Of a stretch of DNA of 64,000 nucleotides, positions 16,638 to 26,757 are shown one piece after another. The stretch lies in assembly GCF_003002095.1 (NCBI RefSeq), contig NZ_PVZC01000008.1, positions 62,001-126,000 of the forward strand, given 5' to 3'. Every line of letters begins with the position of its first letter. Positions within the stretch are counted from its first letter, which is position 1. The notes beneath the pieces are model-generated. The model was given only the letters and a program-made list of their open reading frames with translations. It did no database searches and was not told the origin of the DNA. Position numbers and translations under genes: made by a program. This DNA comes from Allonocardiopsis opalescens. Lineage in GTDB: Bacteria; Actinomycetota; Actinomycetes; Streptosporangiales; Streptosporangiaceae.

Positions 16638-17186
16638 TCAGGACGGGGCGGGCCAGTGCTCGGCGAGCAGGGCGCGGGTGTCGCGCAGCAGCTGCGGCAG
16701 CACCTTGGTGCGGCCGACGACGGGCATGAAGTTGGTGTCGCCGCCCCAGCGCGGCACGACGTGCTGGTGCAGGTGGGCCGCGATGCCCGCCCCCGCGACG
16801 GCGCCGAGGTTCATGCCGACGTTGAAGCCGTGCGCGTCGGAGGCCGAGCGCAGCGCCGCGATGGCCTGCTGGGTCAGCGCGGCGATCTCGGCGGTCTCGG
16901 CCGCGTCCAGCTCGGTGTAGTCGGCGACGTGGCGGTACGGGACCGCCATCAGGTGGCCGCTGTTGTAGGGGTACAGGTTGAGCACGGCGTAGGCGGCCGC
17001 ACCGCGCCGCACGATGAGGCCGTCCTCGTCGCCGAGCAGCGGGATGCGGCAGAACGGGCAGCCGTCGCCCGCGCCGTTGCCGGTGGGCTTGCCCTCCCCC
17101 TTGATGTACGCCATCCGGTGCGGGGTCCACATCCGCTGGAACCCGTCGGGCTCCCCCACGCCGTCCTGGGCCTGCCGCTCGGTCAT
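16638..17186 (-). CDS. HIT family nucleotide phosphorylase/hydrolase (Rv2613c-like)
   Basis: A 182-residue HIT protein. The active-site motif is HLHQHVVPRW (His-x-His-x-His) and the N-terminal Cys pair is in GCPFCRI. Homologues in this genomic position between thrS and pgsA are described as diadenosine tetraphosphate phosphorylases. ATG 17186 gives the usual length; the ribosome site is weak. The normal neighbours are displaced here by the EF-G2 island on one side and the Nudix-kinase-VWA-PurA operon on the other. Confidence 0.92.
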   Translation of the reverse strand: MTERQAQDGVGEPDGFQRMWTPHRMAYIKGEGKPTGNGAGDGCPFCRIPLLGDEDGLIVRRGAAAYAVLNLYPYNSGHLMAVPYRHVADYTELDAAETAEIAALTQQAIAALRSASDAHGFNVGMNLGAVAGAGIAAHLHQHVVPRWGGDTNFMPVVGRTKVLPQLLRDTRALLAEHWPAPS

Positions 17187-17201
17187 GCCAGCAGCATACG
17201 G

Positions 17202-17233
17202 CCGGGCGCGGCGGGGGCCGGGCCCGCGCCCGG
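17202..17233. terminator. hairpin after the DUF885 gene
   Basis: CCGGGCGCGG (17202-17211) pairs perfectly with CCGCGCCCGG (17224-17233) across a 12-base loop. It lies between the DUF885 stop and the HIT start. It could be a terminator or attenuator on the leftward transcript. Confidence 0.45.
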
Positions 17234-17250
17234 GGCGGGCGGCGCGGCGG

Positions 17251-18975
17251 TCACGGCTGGTCCAGGCCGAGCAGACCGCGCAGGTGGCGGGTGGGCGGGG
17301 AGCCGTGCGCCAGCATCGCGTCGTGGATCTCGCGCTGCGCCGCCGAGGGGCGGGCCGCGCGCAGCTCGGCGGCGATGCCGCGCACCTCGCGGTGGCCGAC
17401 GTAGTAGGTGGCCAGCTGGGCGCTGGTGAGCAGCGCGCGCCGCCACTTGCCCACCGCCGCCGCCTCCTCCTGGTGACCGCGCTGGATCATCAGCTCCATG
17501 GCCTCGGCCTCGGTGAGCTCGAAGCAGTGCACCCGCACGTCCAGGATGGCGTTGATGGTGCTGCGCAGCAGCATCTTCAGCCGCATCAGCCGGAAGGCCA
17601 GCGCGGTGCGGCGGTCCTCGCACCAGCCGTGCCGGTCGACCAGTTCCTCGGCGTACACCGCCCAGCCCTCCACGAAGGCGCCGTTGCGCAGCGCGGCCCG
17701 CACGGGGGTGGCGCCGCGGTAGCGGGCGGCGTGGCCGAGCTGCACGGCGTGGCCGGGCATGGCCTCGTGCACCATCGTGTCGCGCAGCAGGTGGCCGTTG
17801 TACTCGCGGTAGTAGGAGGCGGCGCGCTCGGCCGGCCAGTCGTCGGGCGGCGGGGCGACGGCGACCAGCATCGGCACCCGGCCGCCGCCGGGCGGGGCGG
17901 ACTCCAGCGGCCCGGGCGGGTCGCAGTAGGCGGTCGCGACGCCCCGGTGCGCCTCGGGCATCGGCCCGACCGCGATCTCCTGCTCGTCGGGGATGGTGAC
18001 CAGGTCCAGCTCGGTGATCCTGCGGGTGGCGTCCGCCAGCGCCTCCCGGCACAGCGGGAGCACGGTGTCGGCGCCGCTGGGCGCGTCGGCGGCCAGGCCG
18101 TCGAGCACCCCGCGCACCTCGTCGGGGGCGAGGCGGCGCCCGGCGTACTCGGCGGCGGCCTCGGTCAGCTCCTCCTCGACGGCGATCAGGTCGCTCTCGG
18201 CCCGGGTGAGCAGCGCGTCCGGGGACAGCTCGGAGTCCAGCGTGTACCACAGCTGGGCGGCGTAGTCGCGGGTGCCGAGGCGGGAGTCGCCCGCCGCCTG
18301 CTCGACCTGCCCCTCCAGCCAGCGCAGGTGCTCGTCGAGGGCGTCGGCGGCGGTGGCGCGGGCCGCCTCGGTCTCGGCGCGCAGCCGGGGCTCCCGCTCG
18401 ACCAGCGCGTCCAGCTCGGCGCCGAGCATCGCCAGGGTGCCGCGCACCCGGGTGATCGCGGTCTCCACGTGCACCCGCGGCATGCCGTGCAGGGTGGCAC
18501 GTGCGGTGGCCAGCGCGCCGGGGACGGCACGGAACCGCTCGGCCAGCGCCACCAGCCGGTCGGCGGGCGGCAGCGCGTCCCGCACGATCAGCCCGTACAG
18601 CGCGTCGCCGGGCAGGTGGGCCAGCGGGTCCCACTCGTGCGGCCGCAGCTCGGTGAGCCGCCACAGGTCGGCGGCGACGCGCGAGCGCAGGATGTCCAGG
18701 TCGACCCGGTCGGGCGCGCTGAGGACCGCGTCGTCGATCTCGTCCAGCGCGCCGAGCGCGTCGACCAGGACGTGCGCGCGCTCGGCGGTGCCGTCGGGCG
18801 AGAAGTCGGCGAGCCGGTCGTCGAAGCGGTGGTCCCCCAGCGAGGTCGCCCAGGCGGGGTCGGCGCGCATCAGCTCGCCGAGCACCTGCCCCGCCACCTG
18901 GCGGAACCGGGCCACCATGGCCGCGTGCTCACCGCCGGACGAGGGATCGGCATGGGGCTCCGGGGTGTCGGTCAT
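17251..18975 (-). CDS. DUF885 family metallopeptidase-like protein
   Basis: A 574-residue protein without signal peptide. The family's zinc-site motif is in VHEAMPGHAVQLGHAARY (His-Glu-x3-Gly-His), with a downstream Glu in NGAFVEGWAVYAEELV. DUF885 proteins resemble M32/M3-like gluzincin peptidases; few are characterised. The start MTDTPEPHAD at 18975 is preferred over 19077 because the longer N terminus is low-complexity and lacks a ribosome site. It lies leftward, about 170 bases after the XRE-TPR gene. Confidence 0.85.
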   Translation of the reverse strand: MTDTPEPHADPSSGGEHAAMVARFRQVAGQVLGELMRADPAWATSLGDHRFDDRLADFSPDGTAERAHVLVDALGALDEIDDAVLSAPDRVDLDILRSRVAADLWRLTELRPHEWDPLAHLPGDALYGLIVRDALPPADRLVALAERFRAVPGALATARATLHGMPRVHVETAITRVRGTLAMLGAELDALVEREPRLRAETEAARATAADALDEHLRWLEGQVEQAAGDSRLGTRDYAAQLWYTLDSELSPDALLTRAESDLIAVEEELTEAAAEYAGRRLAPDEVRGVLDGLAADAPSGADTVLPLCREALADATRRITELDLVTIPDEQEIAVGPMPEAHRGVATAYCDPPGPLESAPPGGGRVPMLVAVAPPPDDWPAERAASYYREYNGHLLRDTMVHEAMPGHAVQLGHAARYRGATPVRAALRNGAFVEGWAVYAEELVDRHGWCEDRRTALAFRLMRLKMLLRSTINAILDVRVHCFELTEAEAMELMIQRGHQEEAAAVGKWRRALLTSAQLATYYVGHREVRGIAAELRAARPSAAQREIHDAMLAHGSPPTRHLRGLLGLDQP

Positions 18976-19142
18976 CGCCGCACGCCCCGCCCGCTCGGCC
19001 TGCCGGTCCGGCGGTTCAGACTCATCGCTGCTCCCTCGCTCCCACGGTGGCGCCGCTGCGCCGCGCCGCTCCCCCAAGGCTCCGTACCCTACTCAGCCCA
19101 CCGCCAATGCGCTCGGCGCGGACGCGCCGGAAGGAGCCGGAA

Positions 19143-20207
19143 CTAGGAGGCGGCCTTCGCCGCGGCGAGGAATTCCCGGTACTCGTCGGCCCATTCCGCG
19201 CCCCGCTGCTCGGCGGGCAGCGCATCCAGGCCGTTGGCGAGGTGGTCGGCGGCGGTCGCGTGGTCCCCGAGCTCGTGGTGGACGACTCCGATGTTGAGGC
19301 GGAAGAAGGCCGGGGTGTACCAGTAGGCGGGCGGTGGCGGGGTGCCCGCGCCTTCGATCAGCTTCGCGGCGGTGTCCAGCAGGCGGCGGGCTTCGTCGTC
19401 GGCGCCGAGGGCGGCGTAGCCTTTGGCGGCTTGCAGCGTGTCGAAGACCTTCAGGGCCGGGTGGGCACCCGGCGTGGCGAGGGCCGCGTGCGACGCGCGC
19501 ACGACGGCGCGGTGCCGTCCCTGCTTGCGCGCCACGTAGCCCCGGAAGCCGGCCGCCAGCTCCGCGACGGTTCCGTCTCCGACCTCGTCGGCGAGTTTCT
19601 CGGCCTGCCTGAACAGGTGCACGGCCGCCGCGTCGCGGCGCAGGGCGGCGTGCAGCCAGCCGGTCCACACGGTCCACTCCGCGACCACCCGGGCCAGCGG
19701 ATCGCGGTGCGGTCCGCTGGCCTCGCGCATCAGGGCCGCGATGGCGTCCAGCTGCGCGGTCATCGGACCGACCACGGCGGCCGGTCCGACCGCGTCCTCC
19801 AGGCGGCGCTGAGCGGCCAGTACGGCGGCCAGCGCCTCAACGGCGGCGCCGTCGAGGCGCACGGGGCGCTCGATCACCGAGGCCAAGCGCTCGGATCGCT
19901 CATCATCCGGGCCGGACGGATCGTTGCGGGACTCCCGACTCTCAGGGATACCGGCGGTACGTTCGGGGACCGGATCCACGAACCTCGCGAAGCGCGCCTT
20001 GACCTCGTCACTCGATGACGAAAGGGACGAATCCAGAGCCTGCTGATTCACCGGCCGCGGTCGGACGCCCGCTCCGGCCTTTTCCCACTTCGAGACCATG
20101 CGCTCGCCGACCCCGAGATGAGCGGCGAAGTCGCGGATACTCATACGTTTCGCTTCTCGCAGCGCACGCACTTCGCGCCCGGACCAGACCTGGACATTCG
20201 CTGTCAT
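19143..20207 (-). CDS. XRE-family HTH protein with TPR-like C-terminal repeats
   Basis: A 354-residue protein. An N-terminal XRE helix-turn-helix (REAKRMSIRDFAAHLGVGER then MVSKWEKAG, residues about 16-47) is followed by a Ser-rich linker and a C-terminal region of helical repeats (WLHAALRRDAAAVHLFRQAE and FFRLNIGVVHHELGDHATAA). This resembles actinobacterial regulators with tetratricopeptide repeats that bind peptides or partner proteins. It follows the PurA-like gene after only 39 bases on the same strand and could be a fifth member of that operon. ATG 20207 fits the HTH boundary. Confidence 0.85.
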   Translation of the reverse strand: MTANVQVWSGREVRALREAKRMSIRDFAAHLGVGERMVSKWEKAGAGVRPRPVNQQALDSSLSSSSDEVKARFARFVDPVPERTAGIPESRESRNDPSGPDDERSERLASVIERPVRLDGAAVEALAAVLAAQRRLEDAVGPAAVVGPMTAQLDAIAALMREASGPHRDPLARVVAEWTVWTGWLHAALRRDAAAVHLFRQAEKLADEVGDGTVAELAAGFRGYVARKQGRHRAVVRASHAALATPGAHPALKVFDTLQAAKGYAALGADDEARRLLDTAAKLIEGAGTPPPPAYWYTPAFFRLNIGVVHHELGDHATAADHLANGLDALPAEQRGAEWADEYREFLAAAKAAS

Positions 20208-20246
20208 TTCTGATTCCTGGTGGTCTCGGCTGGCCGACCCGTCCGA

Positions 20247-21635
20247 TCATATTCGCTTGGCGGGAATCTCTTCATGTTCTCGCGACTCGTGGAACGGGGC
20301 GGCCGGGATGACCATTCCCATATCGCCTTGCGCGCCTGCCTCGGACTCGGACGGCAGGGTGCGCCCCACGCCGAGATCGCGCTTGTCGGTGGCGCGCGGC
20401 CCGGAGGACAGCAGGGTCACGGGGGCACCGACGACCTCGGCCACCGCTTCGGGCCAGTCGGCGGGAGCCGGAGCGATCACCGGTTCGGCGCGCAGCAGCC
20501 GCTCGGTGAGGCGGGCCTGGGCGGCGAGGTCGCCGGGCGGGCCCGGCTCCAGTGCCGCGACGAGTTCGCCGTCGATCCGGTAGGCGGTGCACAGGCCCAT
20601 CCCGGGCGCGCGGGCGGGCGCGTCGAGGTGGGTGAGCGCCACCTCGTCCACGCCACCCGTGGCCGCGGTCGCGTAGGCGTGCGCGACGGCGTCGAAGTGG
20701 CCGACGCGGAAGGCGCCCTGCCAGCGGCCGGGACCGTTGTGGGCCTCGGGCAGGGCGGCGGTGAGGGCGGCGTCCTCGGTGACCAGCGGGCCCGGGCCGT
20801 GCCGGGTGGTGGTGGTCCGCAGCACGCCCAGCCGCAGCGGCGGGGTGCCGTCGCCCGCCTCGGCCAGCAGTTCCAGCGCGTTGTGCGCTGTGGTGGTGGA
20901 CCAGGTGGTGTACGGGTGGAAGCCCCGCCACTCGTCCAGCAGCACGCCCTGGGCGCCCTCGAAGACCACCGGCCCGGCCGCCAGCAGCGCGGGCAGGTGG
21001 TCCTCGCCGACCAGGGCGACGGACTCGGCGAAGGCGGTGAAGGCGGCCGCGCAGTCCTCCACCGGCGGCGCGTCCAGCGGACCGAGTTCGTCAGTGAGCC
21101 GGTCGCGCAGCGCCGCCAGCTTCCGCCGCAGGGTGCGCGGCGCGGCGCAGTCGCCCGCGGTCGGCGCCTCGTCGGGCTCGGCCAGCGCGTAGCGGGCCGT
21201 CTCGCCGATCCCCATGCCGCACGAGCCGTGCCGTTCGGTGCCGCGCGCCGTCTCGCGGGCCCGGTTGGCGGCCCGGTGGTAGGGCGTGGTGAGCAGCGCG
21301 CGGCGGTCGACGGTGAGCCGGTCCAGCGCGTCGGGCACTCCGATCTCGGCGAGGTGGTCGGCCTCGGCGGCCAGGGCCAGCGGGTCGACCAGGGTGAACC
21401 GGGACAGGTGGGTCAGCACGCCGGGGACGAAGGTGCCCGCGCCGAGCTGGGCGAAGGTGTGGTGCCGTCCGTCGGGGGCGACCACGTTGTGCGCGGCCTG
21501 GGCACCGCCGTTGAAGCGCACCACGGCCTCAGCGCGGTGTCCGCGGCACAGCCAGTCCACCACGGTGCCCTTGCCGCAGTCGCCGAAGCCCAGGTCGACC
21601 ACGACCGTGTGCCGGAAGCGCCCGCCACCCGTCAC
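20247..21635 (-). CDS. divergent adenylosuccinate synthetase paralogue (PurA-like)
   Basis: A 462-residue homologue of PurA, the GTP-dependent ligase joining IMP and aspartate. The P-loop is GFGDCGKGTVVDW (PurA has GDEGKGK), keeping the catalytic Asp. GGAQAAHNVV replaces GGHNAGHTLV but keeps the second, catalytic His. FEGAQGVLLDE, TTTRHGPGPL and LSSGPRATDKRDL match PurA blocks. The PurA TTGRGIGP segment is altered (SCGMGIG), and the GRRRRTGW aspartate loop is replaced by PGRWQGAFRVG. Substrates therefore probably differ. The GTG at 21635 overlaps the VWA gene stop (GTGA). It is not a likely housekeeping purA, given the divergence and context. Confidence 0.82.
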   Translation of the reverse strand: MTGGGRFRHTVVVDLGFGDCGKGTVVDWLCRGHRAEAVVRFNGGAQAAHNVVAPDGRHHTFAQLGAGTFVPGVLTHLSRFTLVDPLALAAEADHLAEIGVPDALDRLTVDRRALLTTPYHRAANRARETARGTERHGSCGMGIGETARYALAEPDEAPTAGDCAAPRTLRRKLAALRDRLTDELGPLDAPPVEDCAAAFTAFAESVALVGEDHLPALLAAGPVVFEGAQGVLLDEWRGFHPYTTWSTTTAHNALELLAEAGDGTPPLRLGVLRTTTTRHGPGPLVTEDAALTAALPEAHNGPGRWQGAFRVGHFDAVAHAYATAATGGVDEVALTHLDAPARAPGMGLCTAYRIDGELVAALEPGPPGDLAAQARLTERLLRAEPVIAPAPADWPEAVAEVVGAPVTLLSSGPRATDKRDLGVGRTLPSESEAGAQGDMGMVIPAAPFHESREHEEIPAKRI

Positions 21636-22618
21636 AGCCGGGTCACCCCGCTGGCGCCGCCCTCGCCCTTGGGCAGCGGGGAGACGGCGACGGTGCCCCG
21701 GCTGGCGGCCAGCGGCGCCAGCGCCCGCGAGACCGAGGGCCCCGAGGCCGAGCCGACGTCCTTGAGGTGGCCGAGCCCGGTCTCCAGGTCGATGGCCTCC
21801 TCGGCCAGGCCGACGGTCAGCGCGATGGTCTCGCAGACGGCGTCCAGGTCGTCCAGACTGATCACGTTCTGGTTGAACAGCTCCCGCCAGGCCGACAGGA
21901 TCCCGTCGTCGCCCGCGTAGCTGGCGCCCTCGGGCAGGATGTAGAAGACCTCGTAGCGGCGCTTGAGCTCGGCGACGACGTCGGCCAGCGGGATGTTCTC
22001 GGCCAGGTCGTCGCCGATCACCTTGCGCACCTCGCGCGCCTTGACCGCGCCGTAGGGCATCTCGTCGCCGATGATGAACAGGTAGCCGCGCCGCCCGCGC
22101 CTGTCCAGGCAGTCCAGCCGGGTGTGCCGCGCCATGAAGTACATGGCCAGCTCGTAGGACTCGGTGCGCTGCCCGCCGCCCCCGCCCTCCAGCAGGATGC
22201 GGCCCAGGTCCTCGTCCATCCGGTTGTCGGACTCGAACTGCCCCACCTGCAGCGGCACCCGGTCGCAGGTGGCGTCGCCGATCGCGCCGAACATGACCTG
22301 GGGGTGCTCGACGTAGCCCTTGCGCATCAGCAGCCCGAACAGCTCGGGCAGCTTGGCCTGCAGCTTGCGCGGCACGGCGCGCATCGAGCCGGTCACGTCG
22401 AACAGCACCGCGATCGCCAGCGAGGTGGGGTGCTCGTCGGAGTCGCAGCTCTCGCGGACGCCGACGCCGTACGGATCCAGGCGTTCGTGCACCTTCCACG
22501 CGCTGCGCGGCGCCGACTTCGTCACCCGGTCGCTGTAGTCGAAGGCGCTGGCGCCCGTGCGGGCGCGGTAGCTGTCGGCGGCGGCGTAGACATCGGTGGA
22601 CCAGTGTCCGCTTCCCAT
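21632..22618 (-). CDS. von Willebrand factor A-domain protein
   Basis: A 328-residue cytoplasmic protein beginning MGSGHWSTDVYAAADSYRAR. The VWA fold starts at SLAIAVLFDVTGSM (residues about 70-83) with a MIDAS-type D-x-T-G-S. Further blocks are GAIGDATCDRVPLQVGQFE, GGGGGQRTESYELAMYFMAR and YLFIIGDEMPYGAV. VWA proteins of this kind organise complexes in TerY-like and other stress-response gene sets. Strong Shine-Dalgarno AAGGAG before ATG 22618. It is coupled to the PurA-like gene downstream; 112 bases separate it from the J-domain/kinase gene. Confidence 0.85.
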   Translation of the reverse strand: MGSGHWSTDVYAAADSYRARTGASAFDYSDRVTKSAPRSAWKVHERLDPYGVGVRESCDSDEHPTSLAIAVLFDVTGSMRAVPRKLQAKLPELFGLLMRKGYVEHPQVMFGAIGDATCDRVPLQVGQFESDNRMDEDLGRILLEGGGGGQRTESYELAMYFMARHTRLDCLDRRGRRGYLFIIGDEMPYGAVKAREVRKVIGDDLAENIPLADVVAELKRRYEVFYILPEGASYAGDDGILSAWRELFNQNVISLDDLDAVCETIALTVGLAEEAIDLETGLGHLKDVGSASGPSVSRALAPLAASRGTVAVSPLPKGEGGASGVTRL

Positions 22619-22730
22619 GTCGGTTCTCCTTTTTATGGTGTTCCGGTCGTTTCGGTGCGGTTCTCGGGCACGGCTCCGCCCCGGCGCGGCCGGACGGCGG
22701 GTCCGGTCCGCGTCGGCGGGAGGCGCGGGG

Positions 22731-23795
22731 TCAGGGCAGGGCGAACGGGCGGAAGACCCGCGGCCCGTAGAGGCGGTCGAGCAGGTCGTCGAACTCGGCC
22801 AGCAGCCGCCAGGCGTCCTTGGGCCGCCGCTCGGCGGCCGGCAGGGAGCAGCCGCGGGCGAAGGCCCGCATCTCAGGCGGTATGCGCTCGCCGATCAGCT
22901 CGACCATGCACCGGGTGGCCAGCGCGATGTCCGTGGCGGGCACGGCCGGGCGCCGCTCGGCCACCTCGGGCGGGTACCAGTCGGCGTAGCGGCTGACGAT
23001 CGCGGTGATCCGCCCGGTGCGGACGACCGCGTAGCACCAGTCGACCAGCGCCAGGCCGTGGTCGTCGGGGTGGATCAGGACGTGCTCGGGCAGTACGGCG
23101 CCGTGGATGACGCCGGCCCGGTGCGCCCAGCCGATGCCCACCAGCAGCCGCCGCCACATCCAGGCCGCGTCCCTGGGGTCGACACCGCCGGGGAAGGCGT
23201 CGCGCACCTCGGCCAGGGAGCGGAAGCCGTCGAGCCGCTGCAGGACGTTGGCGCGGCGCTCGGTGCCGTCGTCGCCGTCGCGGTGCCGGAAGGTCTCCAC
23301 CAGCCTGGGCGCGTAGGGGCGGAACCGGGGGTCACCGCCGGTGTGCAGCAGGGTCAGCGCCTCGGCCTCGGTGGCCATCAGGTCGTTGCAGTCGGCGCCG
23401 CGCGGCAGCTTGAGCAGCAGCCGCTCATCGTCGCCGGCGCGGCGGGCCGGGAAGAGGTCGGCCATCTCGCCGCTCGCCTCGGGCCGCGCCTCGACGCGGT
23501 ACTCGCCGCGGGCGGTGCGCAGGGTGAACTCCTCATCGGTGCCGACGGCCGCGGCCAGGCAGTGCTCGGCCCAGCGGGCGGCCAGCCGGGTGAACGCCTC
23601 GGTGGCCTCGGCGCGCCGCCCGGGCGGCGCCTGGTCGGGGTGGACGGCGCGGGCCAGCTCGCGGTAGCGCGCCCGGGCCCGCTCGCGGTGGGCGGGGCCC
23701 GGCGGGCCGAACAGCTCGCGGGCCGAAGCCGCCCTCAGCACGGTGCGCACGGCCGCGTCGAAGGGCTCCGCGGCGCCGGACGGTTCCGCGGTCAC
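22731..23795 (-). CDS. J-domain fused to a degenerate protein kinase-like domain
   Basis: A 354-residue protein. Residues about 15-80 look like a J-domain, with the helix II/loop YRELARAVHPDQAP carrying the HPD tripeptide (52-54). Residues about 95-340 resemble a kinase fold: LLLKLPRG with a possible ATP-binding Lys (129), GVIHGAVLPEHVLIH where HRD is replaced by HGA, and ALVDWCYA where DFG is replaced by DWC. The catalytic-loop Asp is missing, so this may be a pseudokinase; the DWC Asp could still bind metal. The GTG at 23795 overlaps the Nudix gene stop (GTGA). Confidence 0.78.
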   Translation of the reverse strand: MTAEPSGAAEPFDAAVRTVLRAASARELFGPPGPAHRERARARYRELARAVHPDQAPPGRRAEATEAFTRLAARWAEHCLAAAVGTDEEFTLRTARGEYRVEARPEASGEMADLFPARRAGDDERLLLKLPRGADCNDLMATEAEALTLLHTGGDPRFRPYAPRLVETFRHRDGDDGTERRANVLQRLDGFRSLAEVRDAFPGGVDPRDAAWMWRRLLVGIGWAHRAGVIHGAVLPEHVLIHPDDHGLALVDWCYAVVRTGRITAIVSRYADWYPPEVAERRPAVPATDIALATRCMVELIGERIPPEMRAFARGCSLPAAERRPKDAWRLLAEFDDLLDRLYGPRVFRPFALP

Positions 23796-24619
23796 TGCTC
23801 CGCCCCCTCGCCGGCCGGGCGCAGCAGCGCGGGGTGCAGCAGCCGGGCGTCGCCGGCCCGGTAGAGCTGGGCCCGGCGGCCGCCGCGCGGGCCGCCCCGC
23901 TCGGTGACCTGGCCGGTCTCGACCACGAAGCCGGGCACGGACAGCACCTTGCGGTGGAAGTTGCCGGGGTGCACCCGGCGGCCCCACACCGCCTCGTACA
24001 CCGCGCGCAGCTCGGCGATGGTGAACTCCGGGCCGAGGAAGGCGGTGGCCAGCGGGGTGTACTCCAGTTTCGCCCGGGCCCGCTCCAGGCCGTCGGCCAG
24101 GATGCGGGCGTGGTCGAAGGCCAGCGGCCGGCCGCGCCGGGCGCCCGCGCCCGCCGCGGCGTCGGCGGTGGCGAGGTTCAGCTCGGCCACCGGCGTCCAG
24201 GCGGCGTCGGCCGCGTCGCCGCCCGACACGGGGTCGGGCGGGTCGACCACCAGGGCGAGGTAGGCGACGGTGATGACGCGCATCCGGGGGTCGCGGGTGG
24301 GATCGCCGTAGGTGGCCAGCTGCTCCAGGTGGGAGTCGGCGAGGATGCCGGTCTCCTCGGTGAGCTCGCGCATGGCCGCCTCGTCCAGGTCCTCCTCGAC
24401 CAGGTGGCCCGACGCCGTCTTGTCGGTGCGCACGAAGCCGCCGGGCAGCGCCCAGAAGCCGGCGAAGGGCGGCATGGCCCGGCGGATCAGCAGCACGCTC
24501 AGCGCGCCGCCGCGCAGGGTCAGTGCCACGGTGTCCACCGTGACGGCGACCGGATGGTAGTCCTCCGGGCGGTAGGCGGCGAGGAACTCGCGCTCCTCGT
24601 CGGGGCCGGTGATCGACAT
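23792..24619 (-). CDS. NrtR-like Nudix-HTH regulator
   Basis: A 275-residue protein. An N-terminal Nudix domain is marked by PFAGFWALPGGFVRTD and the Nudix helix E-x7-REL-x-EETGI (DEAAMRELTEETGI); the Gly before the first Glu is displaced by an insertion. A C-terminal winged helix follows (FTIAELRAVYEAVWGRRVHP, then NFHRKVLSVPGFVVETG). This is the layout of NrtR-type regulators that bind ADP-ribose-like ligands and repress NAD or sugar genes. It is the first gene of the operon. An inverted repeat lies 19-51 bases upstream of ATG 24619, suggesting autorepression. Confidence 0.87.
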   Translation of the reverse strand: MSITGPDEEREFLAAYRPEDYHPVAVTVDTVALTLRGGALSVLLIRRAMPPFAGFWALPGGFVRTDKTASGHLVEEDLDEAAMRELTEETGILADSHLEQLATYGDPTRDPRMRVITVAYLALVVDPPDPVSGGDAADAAWTPVAELNLATADAAAGAGARRGRPLAFDHARILADGLERARAKLEYTPLATAFLGPEFTIAELRAVYEAVWGRRVHPGNFHRKVLSVPGFVVETGQVTERGGPRGGRRAQLYRAGDARLLHPALLRPAGEGAEQ

Positions 24620-24637
24620 GGCCTGAACCGTTCCGTA

Positions 24638-24670
24638 GTTCTCACTGTCAGAAATACTCTAACTGAGAAC
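24638..24670. promoter_or_regulatory. palindromic operator upstream of the Nudix-led operon
   Basis: GTTCTCA (24638-24644) and TGAGAAC (24664-24670) are perfect 7-bp arms of a 33-bp element. An inner imperfect palindrome CTGTCAGA...TCTAACTG continues the symmetry. The patch is AT-rich compared with its surroundings and overlaps the likely promoter. It is a good candidate for the Nudix-HTH protein's own operator. Confidence 0.6.
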
Positions 24671-24727
24671 AACGCCGGGCGCGAGGGGGCGAGGGCTCGG
24701 AGGTCTGGCCTGATCCGGCCAAGCGGA

Positions 24728-24765
24728 CGGGGCGGGCGCGTCCCGTGCGGAACGCGCCCGCCCCG
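24728..24765. terminator. thrS terminator hairpin
   Basis: A perfect 14-bp stem (24728-24741 with 24752-24765, CGGGGCGGGCGCGT) closes a loop that can itself pair partly. It lies 19 bases after the thrS stop and separates thrS from the Nudix-led operon. Confidence 0.7.
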
Positions 24766-24783
24766 CGGGCGGATTCGGCCGGC

Positions 24784-26757
<1,974 letters not shown>

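Follow-up and report, generated by a model that had tools for sequence, protein, structure and literature searches.

What does an operon do that places an enzyme of the adenylosuccinate synthetase (PurA) fold beside a von Willebrand factor A (VWA) protein, a J-domain protein and a Nudix regulator? The question is raised by four minus-strand genes, running from 24619 down to 20247, in a 64,000-nucleotide stretch of Allonocardiopsis opalescens (contig NZ_PVZC01000008.1 of assembly GCF_003002095.1, positions 62,001 to 126,000); "the window" below means this whole stretch. Their coordinates, strands and genes match a preliminary description of the locus made from the letters alone. The operon is one copy of a widespread and apparently undescribed module, which is common to chromosomes, plasmids and many large phages. 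Its features are the following.

24638-24670, no strand: operator-like site upstream of the Nudix gene, two tandem imperfect palindromes with the shared consensus GTTCTCA-n4-GAGT-n3-(A/T)CTn-n4-TGAGAAC
23792-24619, minus strand: probably a local regulator, with a Nudix domain and an NrtR-type winged helix (Pfam NUDIX 7.5e-18, NrtR_WHD 7.7e-13)
22731-23795, minus strand: putative J domain, with HPD at residues 52-54, joined to a pseudokinase-like domain, "J-kinase" below; GTG start (phrog_3043 2.6e-58)
21632-22618, minus strand: VWA protein with residues of the metal ion-dependent adhesion site (MIDAS) type, D74-x-T76-G-S78 and D185; vWA fold model (phrog_2971 5.9e-79, unknown function)
20247-21635, minus strand: PurA-fold enzyme, catalytic core kept and substrate-binding residues replaced, "PurA-like" below; GTG start (PF00709, Adenylsucc_synt, 8.2e-60; phrog_1211 7.5e-75)

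The genes overlap by GTGA at two of the three junctions (23792-23795 and 21632-21635), and a gap of 112 bases lies at the junction of the J-kinase and VWA genes. The leftward order, these overlaps and the one palindrome in front were confirmed, and the proposal of an under-described, conserved four-gene system was borne out, as all four genes stand together in 69 of the 80 actinobacterial loci analysed (the best 80 of at least 528). Phage protein families (PHROG) contain counterparts of all four products. The VWA protein has no Pfam match, and the DnaJ and kinase matches of the J-kinase lie under the Pfam cut-offs. In PADLOC-DB 2.0.0 only kinase-fold similarity (MkoA 8.8e-9, PD-T4-6, mad6) and a Nudix match (0.041) were found, the VWA and PurA-like proteins having no match at 0.1. 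No recognisable description of the gene set was found in the open-licence PMC literature, a scope outside which subscription papers and preprints lie.

How widely is it spread? A scan of GTDB-based genome contigs with a VWA profile gave the relatives from which these 80 loci were taken. All 80 are from Actinomycetota, so the breadth outside this phylum rests on plasmids and phages. The PurA-like gene lies downstream of the VWA gene in 79 loci, the single exception stopping at a contig edge; a J-kinase gene and a Nudix gene are each found upstream in 73. Among the 11 incomplete loci, four are truncated by contig ends (L016, L036, L051, L077), three have no detected J-kinase (L060, L078, L084), and four, from three Catenulispora and one metagenome-assembled genome of Catenulisporales (L067, L072, L081, L087), carry VWA and PurA-like genes only. 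The distribution is patchy. Within the order, matches were obtained in 90 of 200 genomes and 19 of 45 genera, three of the 90 being weak or partial (E 5e-4, 5.7e-4 and 2.5e-14). The VWA gene was found in six of 60 relatives, mostly one per genus, with a profile of 45 rows, and in two of 296 genomes of a phylum sample, one being the window's own, with a profile of four rows. Clustering, in which the four operon families and minus-strand frames taken for antisense were set aside, gave no widespread fifth family across the 80 loci (smaller clusters were left unannotated); the widest extra cluster, an amino-acid permease in 17 of the 80, looks like a lineage effect.

Plasmids carry the module as well. 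VWA genes were found in 21 plasmid records, from Actinomycetota, Alpha- and Betaproteobacteria, and in the seven plasmids examined the J-kinase matches in all and the PurA-like protein in six. In four proteobacterial plasmids the Nudix gene lies upstream and is divergent; in two actinobacterial plasmids it lies downstream, and in that of Variovorax none was detected. At loci L173 and L177, where the Nudix gene is downstream of the PurA-like gene, palindromes TTTTAGTC-n5-GACTAAAA and TATTTCTAGTC-n5-GACTAGAAATA precede the J-kinase gene.

Among 50,697 phage records, the VWA gene was present in 208, the PurA-like gene in 220 and the J-kinase gene in 191. Each of these counts includes 190 mycobacteriophage records (189 of Mycobacterium and one of Mycolicibacterium), as counted from listings; gene order was inspected in Gizmo and Cane17, both Bixzunavirus, and is kinase, VWA, one small gene, PurA-like. 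The VWA gene stands directly before the PurA-like gene in Rhizobium phage RHph_TM30, and one small gene separates the two in Vibrio phage phiKT1024. A simple defence reading does not predict core genes in lytic phages. The environmental viral contigs of IMG/VR gave 146 relatives, of which 80 were analysed, on contigs up to 494 kb. The PurA-like gene is downstream of VWA on the same strand in 75 of these 80 (nine near-duplicate or short loci, dropped before the flank listing, are included in this and the other 80-locus counts), and within 400 bases in 62. Some of these contigs may be misfiled: L128 sits on short branches next to L174, the copy from the Variovorax plasmid.

That there is a conserved module, shared with phages, is thus well established. 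Since the four-gene order is kept in 69 of the 80 actinobacterial loci, and the PurA-like/VWA order in both actinobacterial (79/80) and viral (75/80) loci, the proteins probably act together.

What, then, is the PurA-like enzyme? In a tree of 88 rows, the PurA-like family (65), housekeeping PurA (17) and PurZ (5) formed three separate groups with supports of 100/99, 98/98 and 99/96; the bootstrap of this tree had not fully settled, and the columns are less than half filled in four of the five PurZ rows. A housekeeping PurA is encoded elsewhere in the host genome and scores 610 bits vs 202 for the operon protein, which also misses the NCBIfam equivalog cut-offs (155.6 of 402 bits for PRK01117.1 and 125.9 of 395.55 bits for purA). 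The preliminary description had held that this protein is not the housekeeping PurA, and the second copy elsewhere in the genome and the separate clade (100/99) agree with it. It had staked the whole finding on gene neighbourhood in other genomes and on the PurA-like protein being neither inside housekeeping PurA nor the sole copy; both points were followed up, and the finding survived. One phage-labelled PurA, on the faecal phage contig MT837463.1 (L007), groups with housekeeping PurA, outside the PurA-like family.

Residues were tabulated for 166 family rows (161 distinct) and 31 housekeeping rows, in E. coli numbering. A core of 24 residues is kept in at least 95% of both sets, including Gly12, Asp13, Lys16, His41, Gln224, Thr239 and Arg272. 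In the family, the catalytic Asp13 is present in 165 of the 166 rows (one gap) and His41 in all 166, followed by Lys16 (165), Gln224 (163), Thr239 (162) and Arg272 (163). The substrate pockets are another matter. We take Asn38, Thr129 and Arg143 to be the residues which bind the 5'-phosphate in PurA, and Thr300, Thr301 and Arg305 those which bind aspartate; these six, as well as Val273 and Arg303, are each present in 31 of 31 housekeeping rows. In the 166 family rows, Asn38 is replaced by Gln (164), Thr129 by Cys (147) or Val (16), Val273 by His (163), Thr300 by Trp (113), Phe (20) or Tyr (17), Thr301 by Gln (161) and Arg305 by Phe, Leu, Trp or Met (158), and Arg143 is no longer the common residue. 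Arg303, which touches aspartate and the ribose of inosine monophosphate (IMP) in PurA according to PMC8342488, is aligned to a gap in all 166. Judged from these residues, the enzyme has probably kept the phosphoryl-transfer half of what PurA does, with a change of acceptor and nucleophile that is likewise probable. Arg131 was dropped as a mark of lost aspartate binding, being present in only 22 of the 31 housekeeping rows.

One explanation would be an extra, ordinary adenylosuccinate synthetase which raises the supply of adenosine monophosphate, with neighbours functionally unrelated to it. The protein is indeed a PF00709 member, and PurZ shows that the 300-303 loop may differ in an aspartate user. 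However, Arg305 and the phosphate-binding residues are replaced, several of them by near-invariant others, and the gene has fixed partners across phyla and phages. We consider this explanation very unlikely; a housekeeping duplicate was also rejected as unlikely, given the second genomic PurA, the residue replacements and the separate clade.

A second comparison is with phage DNA base modification. The preliminary description had drawn a parallel with PurZ, the enzyme of the 2-aminoadenine precursor, and phage copies as well as phrog_1211 carry the label "2-aminooxy adenylosuccinate synthetase", as PurZ-type proteins do. But Asp13 is present in all 165 family rows with a residue there vs Ser in three of three aligned PurZ rows, the family forms a separate clade, and a bacterial chromosomal copy with its own regulator would be unexpected. 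Moreover, Arg305, Asn38, Thr129 and Val273 are kept in the three aligned PurZ rows and replaced in the family. A PurZ-like role is therefore highly improbable, and the parallel was given up. In RefSeq the "2-aminooxy" label is given to PurZ-type proteins (L210-L212) and to members of the PurA-like family (L003, L004, L008) alike, apparently by transfer.

Inteins tend toward functional sites. By eye, an intein-like insertion was read right behind His41 of a PurA-like protein from one phage (L148:3400-5922), and another just ahead of the MIDAS strand in the VWA protein of phage Cane17 (L008:3825-5711). The two independently point at His41 and the MIDAS as sites.

The partners are a VWA protein and a probable J protein, as the preliminary description had supposed, and their MIDAS and HPD motifs are intact. 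The AlphaFold model of the VWA protein has a mean predicted local distance difference test (pLDDT) score of 92.0, and its residues 65-274 resemble integrin beta I (vWA) domains (Z 15.8, 189 residues, root-mean-square deviation (rmsd) 2.8). In 174 rows, D74 is kept in 173, T76 in 172, S78 in 172 and D185 in 173, and D115, L123, Q124, E129, G147, E153 and Y155 in every row. The J-kinase model has a mean pLDDT of 94.8, and residues 89-340 resemble PknB (Z 25.2, 228 residues, rmsd 2.0); the AlphaFold jobs used subsets of 45 VWA and 43 J-kinase rows. In the J part, helices are predicted at 12-21, 25-29, 34-51 and 61-84 with HPD at 52-54, and the Pfam DnaJ score is 19.4 of 27.8 bits, below the cut-off. 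In 128 rows the HPD residues are His in 121, Pro in 118 and Asp in 121.

The kinase part is degenerate. In the operon copy HRD has become HGA and DFG has become DWC. Among 74 actinobacterial rows, the catalytic Asp of HRD has given way to Ala in 72, and the Asp of DFG is kept in 69; Gly stands in place of the latter in all five rows from proteobacterial plasmids and in 16 of the 46 from phages. The J-kinase thus lacks the catalytic HRD Asp expected of an active protein kinase, and an active kinase of the TerY type, a kind of system which the preliminary description had named, is not supported. A J domain carried by such a degenerate kinase would suit an adaptor recruiting Hsp70 better than a kinase.

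These features may also be read as those of a chaperone-type assembly machine, in which the VWA and J proteins fold or assemble a complex, e.g. phage virion parts, and the PurA-like protein is a subunit switched by a nucleoside triphosphate (NTP), without ligase activity. The MIDAS residues of the VWA protein and the HPD of the J domain would suit it, and J proteins and MoxR-vWA pairs are reported from jumbo phages in PMC7824862. Against it, every row that has a residue at position 13 or 41 has the catalytic Asp or His, which a mere switch does not need; nor is there a recurring MoxR-type ATPase (AAA_5 in 2 of 120 phage flank proteins, no fifth family in 80 loci). We consider it unlikely.

In the viral loci, the J-kinase is often undetected. 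Its profile matches in 43 of the 80 and is undetected in 37; in 13 of 46 phage rows the profile aligned over the J part only, so that some of the 43 are possibly kinase-less J proteins. In 26 of the 80 (L131, L135, L142 and 23 more), its place is taken by a helical protein of about 115 residues (GAFxxSLKRNNKQIRxDRA...), which is directly upstream of VWA in the 16 loci aligned. The two were never found in the same viral locus, and 11 of the 80 have neither. This mutual exclusion suggests that the helical protein functionally replaces the J-kinase. Its copies in L131 and L142 match no PHROG, and that in L132 matches no Pfam family. Directly upstream of VWA in L153, L157, L160, L162 and L169 is a methionine-rich phage protein of about 235-330 amino acids, which by eye looks unrelated to the J-pseudokinase.

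Turning to regulation, the Nudix gene, which the preliminary description had given a helix-turn-helix (HTH) part, proved to have a single dedicated operator-like site. With a consensus derived from four of the same 74 upstream regions (the window, itself among the four, and 73 loci), 73 of the 74 reach at least 15 of 22 positions vs 12 of 1480 dinucleotide shuffles, and 72 reach at least 16 vs two shuffles, which is beyond chance. At up to three mismatches the site was found once in the 6.97 Mb host genome, in front of the operon at 24639-24669 of the window. In 13 regions of the Rhodococcus, Tsukamurella, Catenulispora-type, proteobacterial plasmid and phage kinds, this actinobacterial consensus is lacking, its best score there being 13; the Rhodococcus, Tsukamurella and Catenulispora types carry different palindromes in that upstream region. 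The Catenulispora-type loci L067, L072, L081 and L087, which are without a Nudix gene, share the palindrome TTATCGTC-n5-GACGATAA (arms of 8-11) before the VWA start, divergent, by eye, from PhoH-, YbeY- and CBS-domain-like genes.

Of 83 aligned members, 59 have the whole Nudix box RExxEExG (REL-T-EE-TG here), the copy in the window among them. As it is incomplete in the other 24, hydrolysis is not general, and binding seems the likelier common function of the protein. A Nudix match was found in four of the 80 viral loci vs a Nudix gene in 73 of the 80 actinobacterial ones, and at least one viral match (L157) is a fusion of a nicotinamide mononucleotide adenylyltransferase-like protein and Nudix.

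How might these parts work together? The reading we prefer, to which we give a probability of roughly 0.4, is that the operon is a repressed, NTP-dependent purine-activating ligase plus a VWA/J adaptor. The Nudix-winged-helix protein would bind the tandem operator and repress the operon, and a ligand, either ADP-ribose-like (adenosine diphosphate ribose) or the machine's own substrate or product, would release it. The PurA-like enzyme has the Asp/His pair and phosphate loop which in PurA phosphorylate the 6-oxygen of a 6-oxopurine, and would spend an NTP, GTP (guanosine triphosphate) being the probable one, on such a step. Since the residues which hold aspartate and the IMP 5'-phosphate are replaced, the enzyme would activate a carbonyl on another purine-bearing substrate, probably a larger one, and join something other than aspartate to it. 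The VWA protein, by metal-dependent ligand binding, and the J-pseudokinase, by recruiting host Hsp70/DnaK, may form an adaptor which presents or remodels the target. The repression, the NTP chemistry, the complex formation and the nature of the target are what we infer here.

A bolder form of this reading is possible, and is put forward tentatively: an enzyme of the PurA fold which uses an NTP, and in which the two substrate pockets are rebuilt, would modify a purine within a larger molecule, such as RNA, a dinucleotide of the nicotinamide adenine dinucleotide (NAD)/ADP-ribose type or a nucleotide-bearing protein, which the VWA protein and J-pseudokinase with Hsp70 would hand over. The activity would be new, with phages as a main reservoir of a module which bacteria domesticated under a Nudix repressor.

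Several points weigh against the ligase reading. PurZ does use aspartate, yet its rows too have gaps at 300, 301 and 303 in the alignment, so that of these positions and 305 only Arg305 tells the family apart from such an enzyme; of the five PurZ rows, the three that align at 305 keep it. The loss of the aspartate pocket could equally mean that the second reaction step is lost. The choice of NTP is uncertain: Asp333, presumably the residue of guanine recognition in PurA, is kept in 149 of the 166 rows (15 gaps), but Lys331 is never kept where a row has a residue at that position, His and Cys being among its replacements. In 59 of the 166 rows the C-terminal G416/P417 motif is absent or fails to align, and the residue mapping as a whole depends on the sequence alignment. 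Repression and ligand are argued by analogy with the NrtR family. Finally, the J-pseudokinase is dispensable, as it is undetected in seven of the 80 actinobacterial and 37 of the 80 viral loci.

The neighbours of the phage copies bear on a further explanation. Of 457 flanking open reading frames of at least 110 amino acids, 120, picked mostly by nearness, were scanned with Pfam, and among the hits were NAMPT (4), HAD_SAK_2 (3), TROVE (2), Band_7 (2) and AAA_5 (2). No family exceeds four of the 120 proteins scanned, so a link to RNA repair or NAD stays a lead. The scanned representative of a flank cluster present in seven viral loci is a TROVE protein; TROVE, NADAR, NAMPT, R2K ATP-grasp and HAD_SAK genes lie near a few phage copies (phiKT1024, which is L005, as well as L161, L148, L157 and others), and NADAR and TROVE genes are annotated in phiKT1024. 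One may think that the enzyme restores purines: it would re-aminate or otherwise repair purine nucleotides, whether free or part of RNA, that have been damaged or deaminated. Phages would thereby counter host defences that destroy nucleotides, and bacteria would counter damage by phages or stress. This would agree with a module common to lytic phages and hosts, with the kept 6-oxopurine-activating and replaced aspartate-binding residues, and with the RNA-repair or NAD-salvage genes (TROVE, NADAR, NAMPT, HAD_SAK_2) near some phage copies. But the flanking counts are small and without a background control, large phages often carry such genes in any case, and the VWA and J proteins are left unexplained. 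Purine restoration is, in our opinion, rather unlikely.

The genomic setting of the operon is consistent with mobility. At 16638-26757 of the window, 7.6 kb separate thrS from a HIT gene, and this interval holds a DUF885 gene, the operon and an XRE/TPR gene of the NsdA family. In 19 relatives, thrS and the HIT gene share a strand and lie no more than 200 bases apart in ten, are at about 1 kb in two and have thrS on the other strand in one; of the other six, three carry DUF885 instead, 0.2-1.1 kb upstream of HIT, and three have neither in the stretch examined. As the two genes are often adjacent in relatives, the operon was probably inserted between them. The XRE/TPR protein just downstream (19143-20207) was considered as an operon member and rejected, since only the window's own stretch matches among 90 loci. 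On the PurA tree the cellular PurA-like copies are nested among phage copies, and phages are therefore a likely reservoir of the module, though any direction of transfer would be read from long branches.

If real, the purine-ligase-like reaction would be common to lytic phages, plasmids and bacterial chromosomes. The Bxz1-type phages of Mycobacterium smegmatis offer a tractable phage/host pair which carries the gene set for this possibly unknown reaction. The mycobacteriophage labels "PurA-like" and "2-aminooxy" adenylosuccinate synthetase are questioned as well, because the active site supports neither PurA nor PurZ.

Compared with known systems, the operon resembles the anti-ADP-ribosylation systems centred on ADP-ribosylglycohydrolase (ARG), which have a Nudix sensor with an HTH as one-component repressor, in some cases a vWA protein, and actinobacteria among their hosts (PMC9503650). 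It differs from them in having no ADP-ribosylglycohydrolase or phosphatase, and section 3.8 of that paper names no PurA-like enzyme and no J-pseudokinase. An ARG-centred system was rejected, as neither an ADP-ribosylglycohydrolase gene in the operon nor a fifth widespread family in the 80 loci was found.

Ter systems are proposed to produce nucleoside or nucleotide derivatives. We took a PP2C phosphatase and Ter proteins beside vWA and kinase as the features which define a TerY-P/Ter system; PP2C and Ter proteins are absent from the operon and no further family is in more than 17 of the 80 loci, and this candidate was rejected too. The kinase fold here is degenerate and J-fused, and the PurA-like enzyme replaces the phosphoribosyltransferase or HAD enzymes of those vWA-kinase-PP2C and Ter systems. 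The likeness is that a vWA protein adjoins a kinase-fold protein; systems of these kinds are mentioned in PMC7159879 and PMC7824862.

NrtR regulators share the Nudix domain and winged helix, but the operon protein scores 122.4 of 400 bits, far under the NtrR equivalog cut-off of the regulator of NAD metabolism, and its operator, scanned in this form, is single in the genome and on its own operon. PurZ is likewise a PurA-fold phage enzyme with His41 and Lys16 in common; it differs by its clade, by keeping N38, T129, V273 and R305 in the three aligned rows, and at position 13, which is Ser in 147 of 147 phage PurZ in PMC12884076. To PurA itself the likeness is the same fold and the 24 near-invariant core residues (D13, K16, H41, Q224 and T239 among them), and the difference is N38Q, T129C/V, the loss of R143, V273H, T300W/F/Y, T301Q, the gap at R303, R305F/L and K331H/C. 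If the reading is true, the coupling of a PurA-fold enzyme with an adaptor of the Hsp70 type would combine functions in a new way.

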